Shown here: positions 8,124-64,000 of the stretch, piece by piece
How the letters are laid out: each line of letters begins with the position of its first letter
Numbering within the stretch: the first letter of the stretch is position 1
From: Ophiosphaerella korrae
Taxonomy: Eukaryota > Ascomycota > Dothideomycetes > Pleosporales > Phaeosphaeriaceae
Direction: 5' to 3'
Assembly (NCBI GenBank): GCA_028456385.1
Contig: JALNQF010000040.1
Coordinates: 124,001 to 188,000 of the forward strand
DNA length: 64,000 nucleotides
Program-made: the position numbers and the translations under genes
The notes under the pieces: model-generated
Databases searched by the model: none
Told to the model about the DNA's origin: nothing
What the model saw: the letters and a program-made list of their open reading frames with translations, nothing else

Positions 8124-10072
8124 ATGCTGAATCTTGGTCTATCTTTTCTCGCTGGCGTTGGCGCCCATTTGGGATTCTTCATCCACGGAGAATGGCACAA
8201 CCGCACACCACAGATCATCACTACACACTTGGTTCTCTCGTGTATAGTATTCTATTTATCCATCTCTCTATCATCCACCATTTTAACCGCCTATATTGAG
8301 TTGCTCAAGGTAGCCACATTCTATTTCGTAGGCTTGTTCACTAGCATGACCATATATCGCCTGCGGTTTCACGCCATTGCCCACTTTCCTGGTCCAAAGC
8401 TTGCAGCCGTCACAAAGTTTTGGCATATATACCATGTCCGAGACTCTCGGAATTTTCTGTTCCAGCAGAAATTGCATCAAAAGTATGGAACCTTTGTGCG
8501 CACCGGTGAGAAGTCCACATCACCCTTTTTTTATCTAACTTGCTGATCGAGAATAGGTCCCAATGAAATCAGTATTTTCCATCCTGCAGCAATACAGTTG
8601 CTTGATGGCTGGATGAACACAAACACAAAGGATGTTTGGTATGATGTTTTGCAACCGCGCAGCTCCGCAATTTTCACTCGTGACGAATACGATCACAAAG
8701 AGCGACGTAAAGTATGGACTCAGTCGCTCTCCACAAAATGTACGTGAAGCCACAAAATCCCTAATTTCACTCAATCTTACAGATATCGCGCTACAGCCAT
8801 GGACTCACTGCGTCCACGGATCGCAGACCAGGTGCAGTCGCTCGTGCAGTGTATTGACAAATACGCCGGGGCACCTGTTGATATCGACGAGGTCATGTCG
8901 TGGTTTTCATTTGATGCCATGGGAGAAGTGGTATTCGGAGAGGATTTTGATTTGCTCAACTCTAGGGTGATGCATCCAGCAATCTTGCATAGAGATCGGG
9001 CGTTGGCAATGTTGGGGCCGATTGCGGATGCGATCTGGATCGCTCGGCTCGCGTTCTCATTCGTGCCATTCTACGGCAAGGTGAGAGATTGGATGCGTAT
9101 GGTCGCATTTTGCGAGGAAAGAATGGAGATGCGCATGAAGGTGAGTGCTGGGACAAGGCTCTTCTTGGTTCAGACGGTGTCTTACGTTCCTTACTTAGAA
9201 AGGGCAAAAGGGAGAAAAGCCGGATATGGCTTCATGGTTCATCGACGAGCACCACAGACTATCCGATGTGCGCAGTCCCAAAGCCCGCGACAACTTGTTG
9301 AGCGGTACCGCAGTGTCTGCCGTAGTTGCTGGAAGGTAAGTCGCATCCATTCGGTTTTCCTCACAACGCTATACTTTACTGACACAAGAAAGCGATACGA
9401 CTCGCGCCTCACTCATAGCAACTTGGTGGTTCCTGTCACGCTATCCTGAGCATGCTGACAAAATTCGCTCTGAAATTGAGAATATTGACGTCCGCGATGC
9501 AAACGCATTAGCCACACTGCCCCATCTGAACGGGGTTGTTAATGAGATTCTGCGACTCGTCCCACCGGCGATGACCGGAGGCGGCCGTATAACGGGACCT
9601 AATGGCCTTCTTGTAGATGACACCCTGATCCCTCCGTTCACGAAGGTCACGGCGCCAAAATACGTGATTAAGAGAAGTTCGTAACACCCTTTCCATATCA
9701 TTTATGACAGAGCTGATTTCCATCAGTGGACGCAGCATTCGAATTCCCCAACGAGTTCATCCCTGAGCGGTGGTATTCCCGGCCGGAACTAGTTCGCGAT
9801 AAGAGGGCTTTTGGTCCATTTTCTTTTGGTATGTTCTAGCACTTTAGTGCCTCTTTTGATGCGCTAACGCTATGGATCAAGGAAACCGCCAATGCGTGGG
9901 TAAAGTGCTAGCCTATGTTGAACTCCGCCTTGTGACTGCAACCTTGTTGAAGTACTTTGATGTGACTTTTGCACCTGGCTACGACCCAGACACTATGTGG
10001 CGCGACATGAAAGATCAAGTCACCGCGCAGCCAGGGGAGGTGAAATGCTTGTTCACGCGAAGAACTTCATAA
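8124..10072 (+). CDS. Cytochrome P450 monooxygenase, seven exons
   Basis: About 540 aa after removing introns 8506-8556, 8740-8796, 9141-9198, 9336-9392, 9677-9726 and 9829-9881. The N-terminus has several hydrophobic segments, then FPGPKLAAVTKFW. The oxygen-binding I-helix VAGSDTTRA forms across intron 4, and the K-helix ExxR is NEILRLVPPA. NEFIPERW is followed by the heme-cysteine loop FSFGNRQCVGK, completed across intron 6. The intron at 9677 needs a weak donor (GTTCGT), but it restores phase exactly before the FIPERW block. It is an ER-anchored heme monooxygenase, likely oxidising the product of the neighbouring UbiA-type enzyme (inference from position). All key residues are present, so it appears functional. 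Confidence 0.88.
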
Positions 10073-10782
10073 ATGTAAAGGAAAGCTCGCTCAAGATGAA
10101 CTGAATCGATTGCTTTGCTATCATTCATTATATAGGGTATATCGTATTATCCTGTGGCCTGTTCTCTATCCGATCGATTCAAATGTTCTCTGTTAGCTCT
10201 GAATCGTCGGTGAAGCCTTCGTTATGTTTCATTTTGAAGAAAATATCGAATCAAAAGGGTAAATTGTAGGTTTTGGGTTGTCTGAATCCGTGAATTGGAC
10301 TTCTAGTGTGCAGAGCACACCGCTGTACGTCAATCGTGATATTGAGAGTATTTTGCGCCCGTGCTTAATGAAATTCAGGGCAGACAATCACTAGGTATAG
10401 TTTAAAAACTACAGAGAACTTAAATTTAGAAATCATATGGCTATTTAGATTTCAGCCCATGATGTTATGCACTAGATGTTTTGCGGTAACTAATTGGCGT
10501 CCGTAAACCGTTTCTACGCAGTAAGCTACGCTTCTATATAACTCCCTTAAACCCTTTCTGGGGCTCAATAGAATGTCTCTTTTTTTCTATGCCGATAAGA
10601 TCCGAAACCACTCCGCGGCTTTATTTCTGAACACCGTGAGTAATCATAAGTATGACGTCAATGCGCATTGTATTTAACCTGGCATAGTATTGATTAGAAG
10701 AGTCAAGTGAGTATGGTGATGGCGTGTTTTGCCCTGGTAGAAGCGCATAGGCAGAGTTCTGATTGGAGATGAGTGGAGGTGG
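10073..10782. other. Intergenic between the P450 and the transposon insertion
   Basis: About 710 bases, fairly AT-rich, with no recognisable gene. It is the left flank of the transposon target site. Confidence 0.4.
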
Positions 10783-10791
10783 CGCTGACGA
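10783..10791. repeat. Target-site duplication, left copy (9 bp)
   Basis: CGCTGACGA directly repeats 16616-16624. Each copy lies exactly 6 bp outside the terminal inverted repeat core. A 9-bp duplication is the size typical of Mutator-like elements. Confidence 0.8.
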
Positions 10792-10797
10792 CAGGCT

Positions 10798-10836
10798 GCA
10801 TGTCATCTAACCATGGGTTTGCCAAGGATGCCATGG
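10798..10836 (+). repeat. Terminal inverted repeat, left
   Basis: Begins GCATGTCATCTAACCATGGG. It pairs with 16571-16609 in inverse orientation with two mismatches. The outermost 6 bp on each side (10792-10797 and 16610-16615) do not pair. Confidence 0.85.
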
Positions 10837-10839
10837 GCC

Positions 10840-10950
10840 TAACCAAGAAGAGGCACCGAAATACAGCCGACGTTCAGCCCATGGTTAGGCCGAATTTTCC
10901 CATGGTTAGGCCGAGTTTTCCCATGGTTGAGCAGAGTTTTCTTATGGTTA
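10840..10950. repeat. Subterminal CCATGGTTAG repeats, left end
   Basis: After the left TIR, the unit CCCATGGTTAGGCCGARTTTT occurs twice in tandem (about 10878-10919), followed by variants CCATGGTTGAGCAGAGTTTT and TTATGGTTA. Related CCATGG-plus-CTAA/TTAG words also occur next to the right TIR. Such subterminal repeats are typical transposase-binding sites; binding is inferred. Confidence 0.6.
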
Positions 10951-10978
10951 TTTCTCGTAAAATCACGTTCTAAACACA

Positions 10979-13900
10979 ATGGCCAGCTTAGATACTGCAT
11001 TTGGCCTGTTCAACCCTTTCGCTATCTGGAGGGAAGATTCTATTGATGAAGATCGCACGCTTGAGCTTGGGGACCTATTTGCCGCCCCCGTTGATGGCAG
11101 TAGGGACGAAACAACTGACCCTACCCAGGTAAAGTAGTTTAGAACACGTTCTAAATGCGTTCTAACTGACGTGTAGGAAACTCTTACTATATTCACGGTT
11201 GGTAACAGTAGAGGCCCTCCCCTCTCTGCCGCAAAGGTACTATGGGTACCGGCTGTGCCTATGTATCCTTCAAGTGTTGATGGAGGGTGCGCCTACGTTG
11301 TTCCTATTACAAGAACTGATTTTGGTGAACTACCAACGAAGAAGCAGATTTTGAGGAAGGCTACACAGGTAAACGCACGTTAGAACACGTTGTAAACACA
11401 ATCTAAATATATTCTAGTTCCAATATTCGAAGGCTACTAAAACGAACGATCGTCCAACAATATCACCTTTTTTCAATAACCTACCTGCAACAAGATGGAG
11501 GTATAACTGTACAGGTATAAAGAGGTGCCCTTATCTCTCAGACGCTTTACGAATACATCCGCATCGTAGTGTTGACGATGAGCTTTGGGAGAAGATTAGG
11601 AAACTTCGACACGCTCCTGGGAAACTTCTTACTACTGCAAAGCAGAAGGCTACAAGGTAGGTTTGAACGCGTTTTAGATTAGTTCTAAACGTGTTTTAGT
11701 ACATCTGCTAATATAGTAGTGTCTACATTGGAGTACAGAAGCGATTTGAGTTGGGTGCATGCCTTCAACCTAACGATAACTGTGGGCCTGTTATTCTAGA
11801 ACAGACACGCATAGTACGTAGTAAGCTAGATTATATTAAGAACACGTTGCTAACGTGTTTAGCCAATAGCTGGAAAGTGTCAGCCCTTTATTGGATGTAG
11901 AAGCTGGTCCCGGCAGACACAAGATGTAGAGAGGCACTTTACCCGGAGTATTAATCCAGACGTAGATCTTGAATACCTTAAGCATTTGTTTGAGCATGGA
12001 TTACCAACTGAGGAGCAGGAAGTAGAGCGCTGTTACGTTGTTGAGCCTACGTCAGCTAGGGTAGACAAGTGCAGTAAGTTTTGACGATTCGAATTCGAAT
12101 CCGTTGCGAATATGTTTCTAACGTGTTTAAAGATATTGACCATGCCCAAGGTCCAGGAATTCTCGTACACGACAACTGTGAGGCCTATTACCATATTATC
12201 ATTCCAAATGACATCCAGACGTCTCCCTATTTTGTTCTAATTGTATTTGGAGAACATACCCATATCCCACCACCTCCTTCAATAGCAGAGGATGAAGATA
12301 TAAGGGGCTTAGAGGAGGTTTTGCGACCTATGTTAACCCCAGGCCTAACAAGATGTAGGTCTATACAGAAACGGGATTGGAGAGTGTTTCTAACGTGTTT
12401 AGCCCAGTTTCTTAATTCGCCCCAGCTTAAGGCATATCTTTCTAGCCGTGGTATTCGTTCTGTTGAGGAGCTACATGCTGCATTTGCAAATAAGGATCGT
12501 ATTACAACTATTATTAAAAGGGAGAAGCTAAGTCGATTCCCCTATCGTCACGGAGTTGAAAGTGTTGTATATGAGTGGAGGACTCGGCATCAGATCCCGG
12601 AAACGGTATGAAGATGTTTGAAACACGCTCTAAACGCAATCTCATGATAAGTAGGCATATATCCGGCAGGTCCTGTCTGGCGTGTCAGGCGATATTATTG
12701 TCTGTTTCTTCGATGAACAGGCAAAGATCCTACTTGACCTCGACACGTTCCAGATAGATATGTCGTATAAGCGTCTCCGTGGAAGTTGGGCAGAGATCCT
12801 GATAGCTGCCTTTCATTCAAGACAGAACAAACGTAGGGGTTGAGTACAAATACGATTAGAACGCGTTCCTAACTAGTTTCAGTCATCACGCTTGGCCGGA
12901 TTATTACTGATACATCCTATCGCGATATGTACGAGTTGAGCTTTGCAAGCTTCTTCAAGCTTGCGGGCGAGCGTGCAGGAAGGCCTGTACAATGGCGTCA
13001 CCTTCATGGAACTGGGTTCTATGGAACTACCATTGACATGTGCAGTAAGCAGATGGGAGGTAAGATATTTTACCTAAACGTATTCAGAACACTATTGAAA
13101 CGCGTTCTAGGCCTTGGGCGATATCTGAAGAGTATTGATCCACAAGGTAGAAACTGGAGATGGCAACTAGCTTCGTGTGCTCGGTTCTGTCTAGTTCACT
13201 TTACACGAACGATTAATACTGCATGTGGACCTGGTTCATTACATACTGAAGACTCTCCTTGGGGCCGTATGATGCAGGTCCAAAAAGCTGAAAGAGCTGA
13301 GGAGTACTTTGAACTATTAGATCTCTTAGCTTGTAAGTCTCTCCAACGTGTTTGTAACGTGTTCTAATTGTGTTTTAGTGCATGAAGATTCTCAATTTGT
13401 TCGAAACTGGGCTATTAACAAGAAAAACCCAGTTATTGCAGCTGGGATAGTGAGGTGTTGTAGTAATATGAATAAAGATGTATGGAATAGGTTAGAGTCG
13501 CATACAAACGCGGCTGAGCAAGCTGGGCAGAAGAGCTATAAAACAGGGATACAAACTCCACTCCTAGAGGCCATACTAAAGTAAGTACTGTAGATTGTAT
13601 TGAGAACGTACTCCTAACGTGTTTAAAGCGGCCTACAAATGGATCTCCAAGATGTACTTGAGTTTGATGGTATGGATAAATACGGTACCCGTAGATCCTA
13701 CCGCGGGCTAGCATCTATGTCGCAGCGATACTCGTTAAATAGAGGGAGAGAGAAGAGTAAGTACTCTCTAATGACGTTGTTGATATTCCTACTAAAATAT
13801 GTTTAGAACGTACTCGAAAGCAGTTTGAAGCTGAGACCAATATCTCTGACAGCGATGAGGATCTACTAAGTATTGAAATGCCAGTAAGGGGTCGAAGGGC

Positions 13901-14261
13901 TACTCCAAGAGGAGCACTGCGTAGAGGAGGAACCCCACGTAATCAAACTCGGTCGCCCTCAGTTACAGTGGCGAGGTCTTCACCAGCAAGATCATCACCA
14001 GCAAGATCGTCACCAATCCCAGGGTACGATATAGAACTTGTTTCAAACGCCTTCCTAACGTGTTCTAGGCCTATAAGCTCGCAGGTAGGCGTCCAGAGCC
14101 TTGCCCGGCAGGCTATAACATCAAATCAAGCAATTCAAGACCAACAGAGGTTGCTCGAGATCCAACAGGCGGCCTTTGAGCTTAAGAGGAAGGAATTTGA
14201 GCTCCAGAAGGAGATAGAAGAATACAAAGAGAGGAAACAGCGGGAGGCAGTAGCCAAATAG
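10979..14261 (+). CDS. Mutator-like DDE transposase, 14 exons
   Basis: About 876 aa after removing 13 introns: 11129-11176, 11369-11417, 11657-11716, 11814-11862, 12074-12132, 12355-12402, 12606-12654, 12833-12882, 13060-13110, 13333-13378, 13581-13628, 13757-13806 and 14024-14068. The putative catalytic triad is D473 (FQIDMSYKR), D549 (GTTIDMCSKQ) and E677 (ESHTNAAEQ), with C583-x2-H586 (FCLVHF) between the second Asp and the Glu, as in MULE transposases. The N-terminal half has paired Cys (NCTGIKRC) and a HTH segment followed by four Pro, possibly a zinc-binding DNA-recognition region. The C-terminus has three repeats of RSSPA and a charged coiled-coil-like helix. All exons join in phase with no stop. 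The MULE assignment comes from motif order and the 9-bp TSD, not from a database match. Confidence 0.8.
11129..11176 (+). repeat. Example intron made of 11-bp units (transposase intron 1)
   Basis: Splits as GTAAAGTAG, TTTAGAACACG, TTCTAAATGCG, TTCTAACTGACG, TGTAG. Units of 11-12 bp align on a TTCTAAACGYG-like consensus. Comparable arrays fill the other introns of this gene and of both zinc-finger genes. Confidence 0.75.
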
Positions 14262-14402
14262 GTTTGAGCAGTATAAACAGGCTTAGAACGCGATCTAAAG
14301 ATGTTCTAGCGTGGAAAAATTTTCTTCGCTTAAAATCTCCATTTTTCCTCACCCCGCTTCTCTATATCATTCTCTTCTATCTCCTCTATCTCTATCTACA
14401 AT
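14262..14402 (+). other. Leader between transposase and zinc-finger gene, with an 11-bp-unit array and probable 5' UTR intron
   Basis: Holds an array from about 14282 (TTAGAACGCG, ATCTAAAGATG, TTCTAG), ending in a possible acceptor at 14297. A pyrimidine-rich stretch follows up to the ATG at 14403. It looks like a leader intron of the downstream gene, although the donor (GTTTGA) is weak. Confidence 0.45.
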
Positions 14403-15249
14403 ATGGGGAACAAGACTCTACTTCTTATGGTATGCAACTAGATCATGTTTTAAACGCGTTCTAATCTCATTTCAGCCAATTTATCAGAGATATGCTGAAC
14501 CAGCTTCTCTGCCGCCGGGTACACCTGAATTCATTGAGAATGTCGATGGCTTCTGTACTGTATATCCTGGCGAGTTATTCTGCAGAGCAAAGTGGACCCC
14601 ATACGATGAGCAAGTATGCGGAGTACGTACTTAAACATGATCTAAATGTGTTTGCAACGCGTTCTAATTTTACACTAGAAGAAATTCAGCGATCGAGGTG
14701 CTTTGATCCATCACATCCGGCGAGCCCATCTAGTGTACAAGATTGATTCTGTTAAGACTGGGCGGCGTTCAATTTCTGAAGAGGCTAATGCTCTCTACTT
14801 CTACTACGCAGTAGTTATGCCTGGAGATCCACGGTCAAAAGAGTTCTGGGACGCATGCAAATCACGTTCCTTAACAATTCCTCCTACAGTAACTCAACAA
14901 ACTGCTGGAGAACCTGAGGAGGAACTTAGAGGCCAATCGGAAGATCTGGAACGCGTTGTAAACGCGTCTGAAACACGTTCTCCCTCACTAGATCCAGCTT
15001 CTCCCCCCCCACGTCCTTCAAAACGACAGAAGCAGTCATATATACAGTCTCGTGTAGAAGAAGAGATTACTCCGTTGCCGGTAGATAAGTCTCTTCCCAA
15101 GAATCTTATTCCTGTACCAATATACCGGGTAAATAACTCAAAGCGAGGGCAAGTCAAGGGAGAGGTAAGTTTCTGTTAAAACGTCTTTGTATTACGTTTA
15201 TAACACGTTTCAGGTCAACATAAATAAATGCCATCAGCTTCTCGCATAA
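14403..15249 (+). CDS. Transposon-encoded C2H2 zinc-finger protein, C-terminus lost to a stop codon
   Basis: About 231 aa from exons 14403-14429, 14476-14622, 14679-15164 and 15214-15249. A C2H2-like finger spans intron 2: FCRAKW, then VCGKKFSDRGALIHHIRRAH. A low-complexity acidic and proline-rich middle follows, with a basic RPSKRQK motif. It shares intron positions and phase, finger and tail with the opposing gene at 15482-16398, so the two are duplicates. Here TAA at 15247-15249 falls inside the region matching the partner, and the conserved cysteine-rich tail continues in the same frame to 15351. The role (DNA binding or transposition accessory) is inferred. Part of the exon (about 14949-14982) is itself an 11-bp array. 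Confidence 0.7.
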
Positions 15250-15351
15250 AATAATCTCCTACCTGTATGTGAGGTTTGCAGCGAGAACAATAATGCAAAG
15301 TGTATTTTTATCGGGTCCTGTATAAGTAGAAAGTACTTTAATTTTACATAG
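15250..15351 (+). pseudogene. Severed C-terminal cysteine knuckle of the zinc-finger gene
   Basis: In frame after the TAA at 15247-15249, the sequence reads NNLLPVCEVCSENN, then AKCIFIGSC and RKYFNFT before TAG at 15351. This matches the partner tail VPCASCLEEDKN, ICFFSS and IKYFDLQ. The distance from the last intron to the first Cys is 19 residues in both copies, so the stop looks like a point mutation rather than a real gene end. A minor splice form avoiding the stop was not found. Confidence 0.6.
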
Positions 15352-15481
15352 AGCAACTGCACACAGTAATATAGTAGATCTTTCATTAAAGAAAACTACG
15401 AACCGAACCGAAATCTCTTATTATCTATTTACGAACATGTTTCAACCTACATTGAAACTTGTTCCACCCATCTGCTAGAAA
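15352..15481. other. Convergent gap between the two zinc-finger genes with further 11-bp units
   Basis: Contains GAACATG, TTTCAACCTAC, ATTGAAACTTG, TTCCACCC around 15433-15470, the same periodic unit outside any coding exon. It may be a 3' UTR intron of either gene. Confidence 0.4.
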
Positions 15482-16398
15482 TCAACCATAGATTGGCTGA
15501 AGGTCGAAATACTTAATATTAGCGCATGAGTCCTCTGCATTGGCGCCAGAGGAGAAGAAACATACTGGAACATGTTAGAAAGACACTTCAATCACGTTTC
15601 AATTTCTTACTCTCAGTATTTTTATCTTCCTCCAGACAGCTGGCACAAGGGACCTGGCGACGCTGAACACCGAGAATGTAGGACATGCTAACCACATCAA
15701 GCTGGAACATGTTAACATCGCATTTACAACACGTTTCAATATACCTACCTCAGGCTCACCACCCTCTGGAGTAGTGAAGAGTGGCTGCATGCGCGAGTTG
15801 AGCTCCTGCATGGCGACGCGGCGAAGTTGCTCGCGCTCTCGCGCGTCGCGGGTCTCTCGGCGGATGATACGATCATGGCGCTCCATCATATCATCGTAGA
15901 ACTCTAAAAGCATTATTAGAACATGTTTATAACTTGCACAAAACGTGTTGCAATCTATAGACACAATGTGCCATATTATAAAACGTGCTGCAGACGTAAT
16001 TGAAATATGTTTCAACTTACTCTTGACTTTCTGACCGTACGCCGTAGACGGCTTGCCCTTGTTGTCAGAGTCAACCGAGTCCAGCTTGTGCTGCACCCAG
16101 AGATGATTCACAAGCACGCCGCGCGTGCTCACTTTAGCCTGATCACATTAGAATATGTTTAGATCGCGTTAGCAACGTGTTTCAATACATACACCGCACA
16201 GGGTACCATCATCGTACTGGAAGCGACAACGGATCTCGCCGAAATGGACGATCGGGTCACCGTTCGCATTTTCTTCGAATGGCTCGAGGCTGCGGGGAGG
16301 ATTCGCTTTGTAGCGGAGATAGGATGGCTGGAACATGTTTAGAGCGCGATCAAATCACGTTTCAGTTGACTTACATGGCTGTCGAGAATTCCTGGCAT
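15482..16398 (-). CDS. Transposon-encoded C2H2 zinc-finger protein, intact copy
   Basis: About 201 aa from an ATG at 16398, with introns 16328-16374, 16139-16192, 15904-16020, 15702-15748 and 15565-15610. The finger is RCRFQYDDGTLCGAKVSTRG, then NHLWVQH (C-x9-C...H-x4-H type), split by an intron at the same CG|x position as its duplicate. A strongly charged helix follows (RHDRIIRRETRDARERE), then a C-terminal C-x2-C...C...C knuckle (PCASC). An alternative in-frame ATG at 16494 would read through another 11-bp array; the shorter start matches the duplicate better. It is probably a DNA-binding accessory protein of the transposon (inference). The intron at 15904-16020 is about ten 11-bp units long. 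Confidence 0.7.
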
Positions 16399-16570
16399 CG
16401 TGTTGAGATCGCGTTGAGATTGTGTTGCAAACTTGTTGTTAACGTGTTCTAGCAATATTGTGTTGGGGTTGAACTCGCTTAGAGTTGTGCGCATGCACTA
16501 ACCCGAGCCCGGCGTAGTCATCACAATATATGGCCTAGCGCTGTTTCCATGGCATCCCCGGCTAATCTTG

Positions 16571-16609
16571 CCATGGCATCCTCGGCTAACCCATGGTTAG
16601 ATGACATGC
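16571..16609 (-). repeat. Terminal inverted repeat, right
   Basis: Inverse copy of 10798-10836. Just inside it, around 16548-16570, lies another CCATGGCATCCCCGGCTAA unit, part of the subterminal repeats. Confidence 0.85.
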
Positions 16610-16615
16610 CAACAC

Positions 16616-16624
16616 CGCTGACGA
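16616..16624. repeat. Target-site duplication, right copy (9 bp)
   Basis: CGCTGACGA, identical to 10783-10791, and symmetrically placed 6 bp outside the TIR core. Confidence 0.8.
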
Positions 16625-17276
16625 GCTCTGACCTGAAGGCCGCAGCGGTGGTACTGAGGCCATGGCAGAGTTATCACAGCACCTCGTGCGAGGCAACAAC
16701 ACCAGGGACCATGGCCGCGACGTCGCTCGGGGGCCCGTTCATTTATGTCCTTCTGCCTCTCGAAAGAGTTCAGCTAGGGGCTCTAGCTCCTTTGGTAAGG
16801 AGCTTTGCATGATACGAGGCATTTGGCTCAGCCACACTATACACATGTTGTGATCCGACGCAACAATCCAAGAAGATTCAAGATGGAACGCCTCTATTCA
16901 CAGGCTAGTGATTTAATATAGCTTTTTAAAAGCGAAGCATAAGCTTGGGTAATTCACAGAAATTATAAATAATAAAAACTTTCAGTATTTTATTATAACT
17001 ATGAAATGGACGCTATCGCAGCAGTCCTTACATCCAATGCCTCTCTTTCGCCAAATCCAAAAGCATTAACATTCGTGTCTCATTCTTGGTAGTATTTCAA
17101 GAATACACAACCGCAACGGTGGCCCTAGAGAGTTTACGTGCTAGATGTATCAAAATGGCCAGCCAATAGGGACTGCCGCAGCATCGCTCACATGATCGGT
17201 CTCAGCTGTTGTTCTTCGAAGACTGTAATTTGCCTTCTCCCTTGTCTCTCTCAAGCATCCCTCACGCACGCCTGCT
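16625..17276. other. Right flank of the transposon, no gene recognised
   Basis: About 650 bases. The first 200 are GC-richer, with two short plus-strand ORFs lacking conserved content; the rest is AT-rich. It probably includes the former promoter of the decayed kinase gene at 17277. Confidence 0.35.
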
Positions 17277-18282
17277 ATGGAAGCTCACCCAAATTTAGCT
17301 TATAATGTGCGCAAGCAAACAGATATACCTACAGGAACGCCGCCTTGTTCAGCTTGCTCGTTCATCTTAGGTACCGAAAGGAAGCCCTACAGTGGCGGTG
17401 AGAATATCGTCTTTGCGCTTGAAGATCACAAGGGAAGGGCGACATGTATGCGCATCCAATGCAGTTCTACAGAAGGGACTTCATACGTCTTGAAGAATGA
17501 AGTGAATTTCCGAAAAACCATAGAGAGTTTCGGAATCTTAGGCTTCCAAAAGGTCACTGGGCACGCCATTGCAGGGAATGACCTTATACACTCCCCATTC
17601 ATTACGCCGGAATGGGCGCATGGCACTACCCTTTGCTGGACGGACGAATTCCCTATGAATCTCAGCCACCGAAATAAAGTTATCCATGCAATAGCTAGAA
17701 TCACAATTGACCTCCTTAAGATTCAGAAGCATGGCTAGTATTCTTCTTAGAGCAAATGCAACGACCTCAATAACCTCAATACCGGTATCTCAGCAAAAGG
17801 CTACGTCAAAACAAGAATTAATCGCAAGATAGTGCGAGTTGAACGTCACAAATATAGGGGTGGTGATGCTGAAGGATGCCGGAGACAACTCAGCCTCATA
17901 GAAATCTATTGGGTGCCTAGTCTTGATGAGGCACCTCATGTATTCGTCCATGACGATCTCAGTGCCAACAATATGTGGTCGACGAGGAGTTCGACCCGAA
18001 AAGTTACAAGGTCCATCACATCCTATAAATCTCTAATACTTACAAGCCTGCAGTGTACTCGATCTTGGGTGGGGAGATATGGTTCCGCTTCAATTTGCAG
18101 CAGAATACCCTCGCTTTCTCACCCATGAGCCAATTCAGGTTTCCTCTGGCGCGGCAGTCTTCGATTGGCGGAAGAGAAATACAGATATGATGAAACGGGA
18201 CAGACTGTTTTATCGTGATTTTGTCAGAGAGAGAGAGCTTATTCCGAGGGTGGTATCGCACGCGATTATTATCAGTTACTAG
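17277..18282 (+). pseudogene. Decayed aminoglycoside-phosphotransferase-like (APH) kinase
   Basis: The frame opens at ATG 17277, has a TAG at 17736-17738 and a second TAG four codons later, then continues in the same frame with recognisable content. HDDLSANN is the catalytic HxDxxxxN loop of APH-type kinases. About one base is missing just after it (near 17970), because the VVDEEFDPKSYK segment is in another frame. A likely intron precedes LGWGDMVPLQFAAEYPRF, the usual fungal APH block with the metal-binding Asp region. The N-terminal lobe has PYSGGENIVF and a Lys-containing segment. Two stops plus a frameshift argue for a pseudogene. An undetected intron over the stops is possible but would need sites I cannot find. 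The domain call is fair; the family substrate is unknown. Confidence 0.6.
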
Positions 18283-61084: not shown

Positions 61085-64000
61085 CTACGCTAATTTGCGC
61101 CGTTTAGAAGTTTCTTTCTGCCGTACTGGGGCATGCCGCGTTGGTGATTGGAGTGTAGGATGAGGACTATCTTGTTCCCCGACCGAAGTGCTGTCCGAGG
61201 GCTCTGAGCTGCATAGTTCCTGAAGCGAGGCATAGTCATTGAGGCATGCTCGGGTAGTCTGATGATCTGGGCCCAGTGTCTCCTGATAACCAGCGCAAGC
61301 TCTGCGGTACAGTGATGAAGCCTCACTATACTGTTTTCGTTGATGCAACAAGTAAGCAAGGCTGTAAAGGCTAGCCAGCGTGTCCAGGTGCTTCTTTCCC
61401 AACTCCTCCTCTCTCAGTGCCAGCGTCTCTCGAAACATCGCCTCTGCCTCCGCGTGCTTCCCCTGGCTACTCAGTGCATCTGCCAAATTGTGCATGCTCA
61501 TCAGCGTGCCTGGGTGCTTCTTTCCCAACACCTCCTCTCTCAGTGCCAGTGTCTCTCGATGTATCGCCTCTGCCTCTGCGTGCTTCCCCTGACCACCCAG
61601 TGCAGATGCCAAATTGCTTATGCTCGCTAGTGTGTCCGGGTGCTTCTTTCCCAACACCTCCTCCCCTAGTGCCAGCGTCTCTCGAAACATCGCCTCTGCC
61701 TCCGCGTGCTTCCCCTGGCTACTCAGTACATATGCCAAATTGTGCATGCTCGCCAGCGTGTCCGGGTGCTTCTTTCCTAACACCTCCTCTCTTAGTGCCA
61801 GTGTCTCTCGATGTATCGCCTCTGCCTCCGCGTGCTTCCCCTGGCTACTCAGTGTAGATGCTAAATTGTGCATGCTCATCAGCGTGTCCCGGTGCTTCTT
61901 TCCCAACACCTCCTCCCCCAGTGCCAGCGTCTCTCGAAACATCGCCTCTGCCTCCGCGTGCTTCCCCTGGCTACTTAGTACATATGCCAAATTGCTTATG
62001 CTCACCAGCGTGTCCGGGTGCTTCTTTCCCAACACTCCCTCTCTCAGTGCCAGTGCCTCCTGATGCATCTTCTCCGCATCTGTGTACTTCCCTTGTCCAA
62101 TTAGTGCCAATCCCACAGAGTTCATGCTCGCCAGCGTCCATGAGTGCTGCTTTCCAAAAACTACTATCCTCTGTTCAAGAACCTTTCTATGAGCGAGCTC
62201 TGCGGCTCTGAACCGTCCCAGCGTCTGCTCACAACATCCTATTCGGTCCAGCAGCGACATCCTGGCCTCTACCTCATACAGCTCGGGCAAGTCTACCACG
62301 TGTGTAGCATGAGGCAGATATGCTGTCCACACCTCTTTCCTGTTGTGGTTGCCAAACGGCACAACCTCTACAAGTCTTTTTAAAGTCTTTTCCGCCCACC
62401 CGACCCATTGGCTGTTCTTTTTCAACCACCCTTGCATGGCTAGGTGAACGAGCGGGTGGACGTCAAACGCCTTCGCTAGCTGTCTCGTTTCCGCTGTTTG
62501 CTCGCCTCCCTGGCTTTGCCGTTCGGTGAAAAATGCGTAGGCCTTTAATATCCCAATGGCCTTCATCTGCTCTACTTTAGAACCATCCGCGGGCAGCATC
62601 GACGCTGGTATATCAGTGTTGGCTATGCACGCCATAAACGACAAGTAGTCGGCAGCTAGCTTATTCTTTTTCTGGATCTGCTTGAACGAGATATACCATG
62701 TCGTGGCTACTGGATTCTTAGTATCCCGGTACCGGCCCTGGTCCTCAAATTCTTCGCTGAGAAGAGTCATCGCCTCCCTCTCACTGCTTCGGTAGTTAGA
62801 GATGTAGTCGGACAGGGTGACGTCGTTTGTGTTGATGAAGGCTGCCGCCTGAACAATGGCAAGAGCGAGGAAGGCGAGTATGTCAAGAAATTCGTCTATG
62901 ATCTTGCTATTTTGAAGCTGATGTTGATGCTCCTGGAGTAACCGGGTCGTTAATACCTCTTCTGCCTCTAGCTTTGTCAACTCGCCCAGTGGTACGACAT
63001 TGTTCGCGGCCAGTTTGATCGCAGCCTCCCGAGTGCGCGTGGTGAACACGATCGATCCCTTACGGCTGTGCGGGAGCCAGTCGATGAGCCGGTCTACACT
63101 GCTCGTCTCTCTGAGAGCGTCAAAGAGCACACTGTCGTCGTCGGCATTGTCCACCACCATCAGCCACCGGCCGAACTCTTCGTTGCTCAGCCTCGCCTTG
63201 ACGAGCCGCTTGACGTCCGCGTTGTCGTCCGCGATGCCTGGAATGGACAGACGCTCTCCAATCTCTCCATATGCCTGCTCAAAGCTTTCCCAGCTAACCG
63301 CCGGCACCCACAAGACAGCGCGAGCAGGTTGCCGCTCCCTCGTCCGATATGCCACCTCGAGAGCAAGCGCCGTTTTCCCACAGCCGCCAAGGCCGTAGAT
63401 TGCAAGCCGTCGGCCACCCTCTGATGAAATGTGCGCATCGAGCTGGGCAAGCGGAGTCTCTCGTCCAGCGAAGGACGGCGGCCTCGCGAATGGGACCACC
63501 CAGGGCGCTGCCAGGCATCAGCATATTACGCATGCGTTAGATTTTAAATATAAATGTCATTGATGCCATTGATGTACTGCTGTGTTCCGCATACGACGCA
63601 GCCCATTGCAGGATAGATCTATCACTAACCTTCACGCAAACCTACATTCACACCTTCCATATCCTTGACCATGCTAGGCTGGATCCTGCAGAGCAGTTCC
63701 CTAGTGAATGCAGCTGCCTTTCCCGCCGCGTGCGATCGCCACACGTCGCTCTTGTGCGAGTCCGCATAGTCGGAAATGCCGCGGATAACCAGACACTGTC
63801 GGTTGACGTCCACGCCCGCAGCCTCCATCTCGACGCAGAGCGCTCCATCGCATCTCGCACCGATTCTGTCGCGCTGCTCGCCGTCTTGGATGACTGCATT
63901 CCCTGTCGCGATCCTTCCTAGGTGGAAGACTAGCTGGTCCTTGTCGTCTTCGGTCCTTGCAGGTCGCTGCACGAGTTCGTTCGGATCGCATGATACGCAC
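61085..64000 (-). CDS. NLR-like protein: nucleoside-phosphorylase domain, NB-ARC NTPase and TPR repeats (N-terminus outside window)
   Basis: Two exons visible, intron 63508-63629, joined as REAPWVVPFARPPSFAGRE. The upstream exon is the end of a PNP/UDP-phosphorylase domain: FHLGRIATGNAVIQDG, then CVEMEAAGVD and CLVIRGISDYADSHKSD. The NB-ARC domain has P-loop YGLGGCGKTALALEV, Walker B-like WLMVVDNADD and IVFTTRTREA. The C-terminal half carries kinesin-light-chain-type TPRs of 42 residues (for example QGKHAEAEAMFRETLALGEE). The order is that of fungal NOD-like receptors involved in non-self recognition or regulated cell death. The six or so central repeats are nearly identical and alternate between two types. 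It ends in a basic KETSKRRKLA. No frameshift is seen. The gene continues past the right edge. Confidence 0.9.
61400..62110 (-). repeat. Tandem 126-bp TPR-coding repeats with 252-bp higher-order unit
   Basis: Successive 42-aa units within the NLR-like gene are almost identical. AMFRETLALGEE and AIHRETLALREE types alternate, giving an 84-aa super-repeat. High nucleotide identity suggests recent expansion or gene conversion. Confidence 0.85.

Follow-up and report, generated by a model that had tools for sequence, protein, structure and literature searches.

Arrays of a near-palindromic core at 11-bp steps in a MULE-like transposon of Ophiosphaerella korrae: possible binding sites for an element-encoded protein

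The 64,000-nucleotide stretch of Ophiosphaerella korrae analysed here (contig JALNQF010000040.1 of assembly GCA_028456385.1, positions 124,001 to 188,000 of the forward strand; hereafter the window, in whose coordinates positions are given) contains a complete MULE-like transposon, most introns of which carry arrays of a degenerate unit repeated at 11-bp steps. The element has three genes, one transposase-like and two with zinc-finger-like products, whose frames are all open after splicing of 21 introns (13 + 3 + 5); our own gene models gave the same count as a preliminary description of this DNA. Its structure and genes are as follows.

10792..16615, complete MULE-like element of 5824 bp, delimited by copy boundaries and 9-bp duplications
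10783..10791, left target-site duplication CGCTGACGA, 9 bp
16616..16624, right target-site duplication CGCTGACGA, 9 bp
10798..10836, plus strand, left terminal inverted repeat, 39 bp, 95% identity to the right end
16571..16609, minus strand, right terminal inverted repeat
10979..14262, plus strand, transposase-like gene, 13 introns, 876 amino acids, open frame after splicing
14403..15249, plus strand, gene 2, 231 amino acids, C2H2-like zinc finger, 3 introns
15482..16398, minus strand, gene 3, 201 amino acids, zinc-finger-like, resembles gene 2, 5 introns

The terminal inverted repeats are imperfect overall, apart from the 39-bp stretch listed above. Eight loci were first retrieved from the same genome, and in all six copies with both flanks on a contig, the window copy included, the 9-bp duplication is perfect and of its own distinct sequence. 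Together with the inverted repeats and the accessory genes, this length suggests a MULE-like element, the duplications of that superfamily being 8-11 bp long according to the available part of PMC6446971. The assignment stops there, since no Pfam MULE domain match was obtained in the element proteins up to E 5; Rfam at the gathering threshold likewise gave no match in window 10000-17500. A 21-bp unit, CCCATGGTTAGGCCGAGTTTT, is present in 3.5 copies close to the left end (window 10878-10950), where two other copies, L007 and L016, have 21 extra bases.

Each of the two smaller proteins has one finger-like unit, recognized by eye, in which C-x11-C-G (gene 2) or C-x9-C-G (gene 3) is followed by H-x4-H. 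Because of these units and the first two intron places, which are common to both genes (by eye), genes 2 and 3 look like paralogues. The introns and other array-bearing parts of the element are distributed as follows.

11129..11176, plus strand, transposase intron 1, array
11369..11417, plus strand, transposase intron 2, array
11657..11716, plus strand, transposase intron 3, array
11814..11862, plus strand, transposase intron 4, array
12074..12132, plus strand, transposase intron 5, array
12355..12402, plus strand, transposase intron 6, single core, at the acceptor
12606..12654, plus strand, transposase intron 7, degenerate units only, no full core
12833..12882, plus strand, transposase intron 8, array
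13060..13110, plus strand, transposase intron 9, array
13333..13378, plus strand, transposase intron 10, array
13581..13628, plus strand, transposase intron 11, array
13757..13806, plus strand, transposase intron 12, weak array
14024..14068, plus strand, transposase intron 13, array
14268..14311, plus strand, degenerate units from the transposase stop to the gene 2 start
14430..14475, plus strand, gene 2 intron 1, array
14623..14678, plus strand, gene 2 intron 2, array
14950..14982, plus strand, in-phase cores in gene 2 coding sequence, at 14950/14972
15165..15213, plus strand, gene 2 intron 3, array
15434..15463, minus strand, two in-phase cores between convergent genes 2 and 3, at 15434/15456
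15565..15610, minus strand, gene 3 intron 5, array
15702..15748, minus strand, gene 3 intron 4, array
15904..16020, minus strand, gene 3 intron 3, 117 bp, partly in register
16139..16192, minus strand, gene 3 intron 2, array
16328..16374, minus strand, gene 3 intron 1, array
16399..16480, array upstream of gene 3, in-phase cores at 16430/16441

The arrays had been described as a property of introns, which is true of most introns but too narrow, as in-phase cores also occur in coding sequence, between genes 2 and 3 and upstream of gene 3, where no splice sites were seen by eye (16399..16480). Arrays at the place matching this upstream array are present in a related family (family 2, below) and probably in a third, and the region at 14268..14311 has one additional 11-bp unit in family 2. 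The 117-bp intron of gene 3, which had been presented as a clear case, does contain the repeat but is only partly in register, and splicing of transposase intron 6 is less certain, as it is open and its length is a multiple of 3.

The period proposed in the preliminary description was borne out when introns were compared with exons and the motif with its background. Identity at lag 11 is 0.431 in the introns against 0.266 (standard deviation 0.014) over 300 shuffles (z 12.0, or 11.9 with two refined boundaries), lag 22 is also raised (z 7.6), and the exons, at 0.258 for lag 11, are without the period. The unit consists of a near-palindromic core, AACRYGTT, and a 3-bp spacer. The exact core is found in 19 of the 21 introns and occurs 24 times in introns (21 per kb), twice in exons (0.5 per kb) and four times in the 58 kb that surround the element (0.07 per kb). 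With the looser form AAYNNRTT, the element contains 46 cores, for 17 of which the next core lies at 11 or 22 bp and for one at 38 bp, while none of the 58 such cores elsewhere in the window has its next core at 11 bp. Across the 63-Mb genome, two exact cores at an 11-bp step (AACRYGTT-N3-AACRYGTT) were found 60 times and at a 12-bp step (N4) twice, and the reversed control gave one occurrence for each spacing. Among the 50 of these 60 places that were listed and classified, 43 fall within or next to DNA akin to this kind of element, six have the same 19-mers as element copies, and one is the locus L034 (C668:86700-88200; locus C668:87440). The latter carries two 11-bp arrays of AACRYGTT-like cores at 719-830, and its similarity to element loci extends over only 20-38 bp, at its array.

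The other copies of the family to which the window copy belongs (family 1) are mostly of little use for judging conservation. Mutated copies are 82-93% identical and almost indel-free in the aligned pieces, L012 having the most indels with its insertions of 1 and 15 bases. Nearly all differences are changes of C:G to T:A, chiefly at CpA and CpG sites, a pattern of repeat-induced point mutation (RIP). Such mutations and the introns would by themselves suggest a fungal host, probably an ascomycete. RIP rates were taken from 11 copies (L003-L006, L008, L009, L011-L015), leaving out L002 and L007, which are nearly unmutated, and L016, which is more diverged; over the aligned bases, L002 matches the window copy except for one missing base. 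Conservation within family 1 was considered as a sign of selection and rejected, C:G to T:A changes making up at least 99% of the differences in 10 of the 11 copies and 98.1% in L003. Since most other copies are RIP-mutated, diverged relatives were used instead. Shielding of the arrays from RIP by a bound protein was also rejected: CpGs in introns looked protected, but those in an RCGY context are mostly spared in exons too (106/834 mutated), as in introns (75/832; about 0.1 in both), against 1661/2416 and 104/190, respectively, at other CpGs (0.55-0.69). RCGY accounts for 91 of 113 intronic and 91 of 353 exonic CpG positions; the CpGs of the motif thus sit in a RIP-poor context, which alone suffices without shielding. 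The RIP rate is also lower at sites close to the element ends.

Family 2, exemplified by L017, L018 and L028, has the same gene order, with placed transposase exons 36-64% identical, a value lowered by RIP. In L018, an intron-like insert lies at the identical place in all 11 testable transposase introns (introns 1-11, for which both flanking exons were placed; introns 12 and 13 could not be placed); the donor GT of intron 6 is lost in L018 and kept in L017. The preliminary description had proposed to look at homologous elements for conservation of the arrays, and here the 11-bp period is kept: pooled over the eleven family 2 introns, lag-11 identity is 0.44 against 0.283 (standard deviation 0.020). 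The core motif is the same in both families, and the centre is RY in 21 of the 26 phased cores of L018. Alignment scores average 25.5 for homologous introns, 20.2 (standard deviation 7.1) for non-homologous pairs and 9.3 for shuffled sequences, which suggests that some homology remains and that most of the likeness is due to the shared unit. Intron sequence has thus been largely replaced while the 11-bp period persists across the set.

The same comparison bears on the earlier suggestion that a single ancestral repeat intron multiplied into all these places in the manner of introners. Introns at different places are indeed alike beyond shuffled sequences (20.2 vs 9.3), as such multiplication would predict; however, family 2 has introns at all 11 testable places, and genes 2 and 3 have two places in common (by eye), and we consider this origin extremely unlikely. 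Because a distant family has introns at the same places and genes 2 and 3 have some in common, position marks the introns as old, and the arrays evolved within them.

Family 3 is represented by one copy on C778 (L029-L031), of which 11 kb were read. Both accessory genes have relatives in it (gene 2, E 1e-18; gene 3, E 7e-6), and the transposase C-terminus has a weak match (E 0.13), the rest of the transposase not being found in these 11 kb. The gene 2 exons of this copy are mostly open, so that it seems little affected by RIP; with no clear transposase in these 11 kb, it may be a remnant or a copy that the host has retained. It has 14 runs of two or three cores at the exact 11-bp step, two of them within the gene 2 coding match, and 23 of its 39 cores have their next core at 11 bp, where shuffles lead one to expect 0.00. 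The outer letters of the core are the same as in family 1, and its centre is changed: of its 37 phased cores, 8 have RY, compared with 28 of 33 in family 1 (Fisher p 9e-8), and when all cores are counted the figures are 9 of 39 and 36 of 46 (p 4e-7).

Smaller derivatives also carry the arrays. L040 is a 680-bp mobile derivative with a perfect 9-bp duplication and family 2-like ends, one side of which is 66% identical over 218 bp to the gene 3 start region; it has no open reading frame of at least 50 amino acids wholly within the element, and its in-phase cores lie in the middle, outside the gene 3-like part. Its relative L041 has three additional perfect 11-bp units in an array close to one end, and L037 is a 1038-bp chimera with family 1 ends and a family 2 interior, whose junction adjoins an array. 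The gene 2 module (about 14268-15484) likewise has borders at or near 11-bp arrays; compared with L017/L018, its transversion rate is 0.038, non-coding parts included, against 0.127-0.219 in five transposase exons, so that the module with its non-coding surroundings was probably exchanged between families. Copies that differ by exact 11-bp units, together with the chimera junction and the module borders, are what tandem slippage and conversion would produce if units had merely spread neutrally among introns. Such purely mutational spreading is nevertheless very unlikely in our judgement, for core and phase are kept in family 2 despite the turnover of intron sequence, and the outer core letters recur in family 3.

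We therefore favour, by a little, the explanation that is now the best supported of the three ideas in the preliminary description, namely that the arrays would be series of sites to which a DNA-binding protein of the element itself attaches, the product of gene 2 and/or gene 3 being the most likely candidate. It is supported by a period and core far above chance, with 43 of the 50 listed places element-related; by the retention of intron places and lag 11 in family 2 despite sequence turnover; by exact 11-bp pairs with a changed centre in family 3; by the cores found upstream of gene 3, in coding sequence and in the derivative L040; by variation of unit number in 11-bp steps; and by the two zinc-finger-like genes that adjoin the transposase. 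A further support is the precedent of VANC, which is experimental according to the available part of PMC5735166.

In the proposed mechanism, each site recognized would consist of two 3-bp half-sites in inverted orientation, AAC..GTT, around a 2-bp centre, which would suit two single-finger proteins; we infer this paired binding, as well as the identity of the binder. With a step of 11 bp, successive sites would face nearly the same side of the helix, and tandem sites about one helical turn apart would become filled, their density giving specificity for the element. Introns would house the arrays as non-coding space of the element, and the last unit of an array would also serve as a branch site. 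The outcome would be an element kept expressed or unsilenced, as with VANC on VANDAL elements; by this analogy, anti-silencing is the likely effect of the arrays.

The arrays might instead recruit a host DNA-binding protein. In favour of this, ACGCGT is the MluI cell-cycle box of fungi. However, the centres of the 35 intron cores are GT in 11, AT in nine, AC in six and GC, as in that box, in only six, and family 3 has another centre although its host is the same, which makes a host binder quite unlikely. The MluI box itself was rejected as the main target on the core-centre counts.

Several observations weigh against binding sites for an element-encoded protein. The zf-C2H2 match of gene 2 in Pfam is weak (E 0.00039, short of the curated threshold), and none at all was obtained for gene 3. 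An in-phase pair of even the looser core occurs in only 13 of the 21 introns, so that the earlier statement that almost every intron is an array applies to degenerate units and less well to strict ones. The change of core rests on a single family 3 copy. There, identity at lag 11 is raised (0.286, against 0.255 with standard deviation 0.008 in shuffles), but so is that at lag 12 (0.290) and lag 22 (0.306), and autocorrelation alone does not single out 11 bp; over the whole 11 kb read, lag 11 is unraised. Family 2 has almost the same gene 2 introns, and these, the module having probably been exchanged, lend no independent support.

A further point concerns splicing: measured from the 3' splice site, 30 of the 35 intron cores share one phase to within one base, which shows that splicing shapes the arrays too. 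A branch-like CTRA word lies 9-12 bases from the end of 16 of the 21 introns. The arrays had also been said to follow the orientation of the gene, which is only weakly so: the core is near-palindromic, and with a matrix built from plus-strand introns without their donor and acceptor zones, the two strands of the gene 3 introns score nearly equally, sense being higher in four of five and antisense in the long intron. Directionality comes mostly from the acceptor end. It could thus be argued that the arrays are a by-product of splicing, a branch-site/acceptor word, CTAACGTGTTYTAG, having been copied outward at 11-bp steps to give redundant branch sites with no role at the DNA level. The phase and the CTRA words agree with copied splicing signals as an origin or a constraint. 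Splicing alone is insufficient, however, because in-phase cores occur upstream of gene 3, in the coding patch of gene 2 and in the derivative L040, which is without an intact gene; they also lie between genes 2 and 3, and no 11-bp core pair occurs in the remaining 58 kb of the window with its many apparent host genes. As a full account of the arrays, this by-product is accordingly unlikely.

If the arrays do bind a protein of the element, density-based self-recognition would have arisen separately under RIP and under plant RNA-directed methylation, through unrelated proteins. The element would then offer a case of binding sites and splicing signals in the same letters, and a site that is compact, phased and near-palindromic, has small proteins as candidate binders and is easily tested. 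A more far-reaching proposal, which we regard as possible rather than probable, is that this fungal lineage evolved its own self-recognition and anti-silencing independently of VANDAL and VANC, with zinc-finger proteins coating phased palindromic sites in introns, protein and core changing together between families, and RIP-poor CpGs letting the arrays partly outlast host defence. Against it stands the fact that CpA in the cores is still mutated at about half of the sites (ACA in intron cores at 113/234).

Elsewhere in the window, 126-bp tandem repeats occupy 61370-62137, within a long open frame that looks NB-ARC/TPR-like.

With regard to known systems, introners are many similar short introns inserted at new places; the present introns resemble them in being many, short and alike, and differ in occupying old places and in sharing chiefly the unit. 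En/Spm encodes a protein that attaches to numerous short repeats within the element, the subterminal TNPA motifs. The same kind of binding is proposed here, but En/Spm belongs to another superfamily and the present sites extend across introns. The ascomycete MULE Mutyl is similar in its 9-10 bp target duplications and its inverted repeats, and likewise has a second gene, whose role is in DNA binding (PMC6446971); the available part of its description mentions no such array. Outside the VANDAL work, no fungal or other transposon with such arrays is described among the titles and abstract openings listed in literature searches, which is weak evidence of absence.

The earlier statement that no described transposon has this property is nonetheless too strong, as VANDAL elements have tandem repeats of short motifs in introns and other non-coding DNA, according to the available part of PMC5735166. 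As far as the accessible text of that report goes, VANC21 of Arabidopsis recognizes a 9-base motif and owes its specificity to the density of that motif in the introns, intergenic stretches and termini of its own family; the targets of VANC6 have a different motif (PMC5735166 and the available part of PMC10398659). VANDAL21 and VANDAL6 share with the present, MULE-like element the presence of accessory genes and a short motif in tandem in non-coding DNA, a motif that differs among related families, and repeats that gain or lose units (PMC5735166, PMC10398659, in their available parts). Here, the motif is concentrated in the non-coding parts of this kind of element, except for L034, and differs between families 1 and 3, the latter represented by one copy. 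The differences, as far as these sources extend, lie in the protein, VANC being a DUF1985/DUF287 protein, neither of which domains has a Pfam match in any of the three element proteins, whereas short zinc-finger-like proteins are encoded here; in the motif, YAGTATTAY (9 bases) against a near-palindromic 8-mer at a regular 11-bp step; and in the host defence, plant DNA methylation against RIP-type mutation. VANC binding has been shown by experiment, whereas binding here is predicted from the sequence. The arrays are therefore best read as analogous to, and not homologous with, the VANC targets of VANDAL elements.

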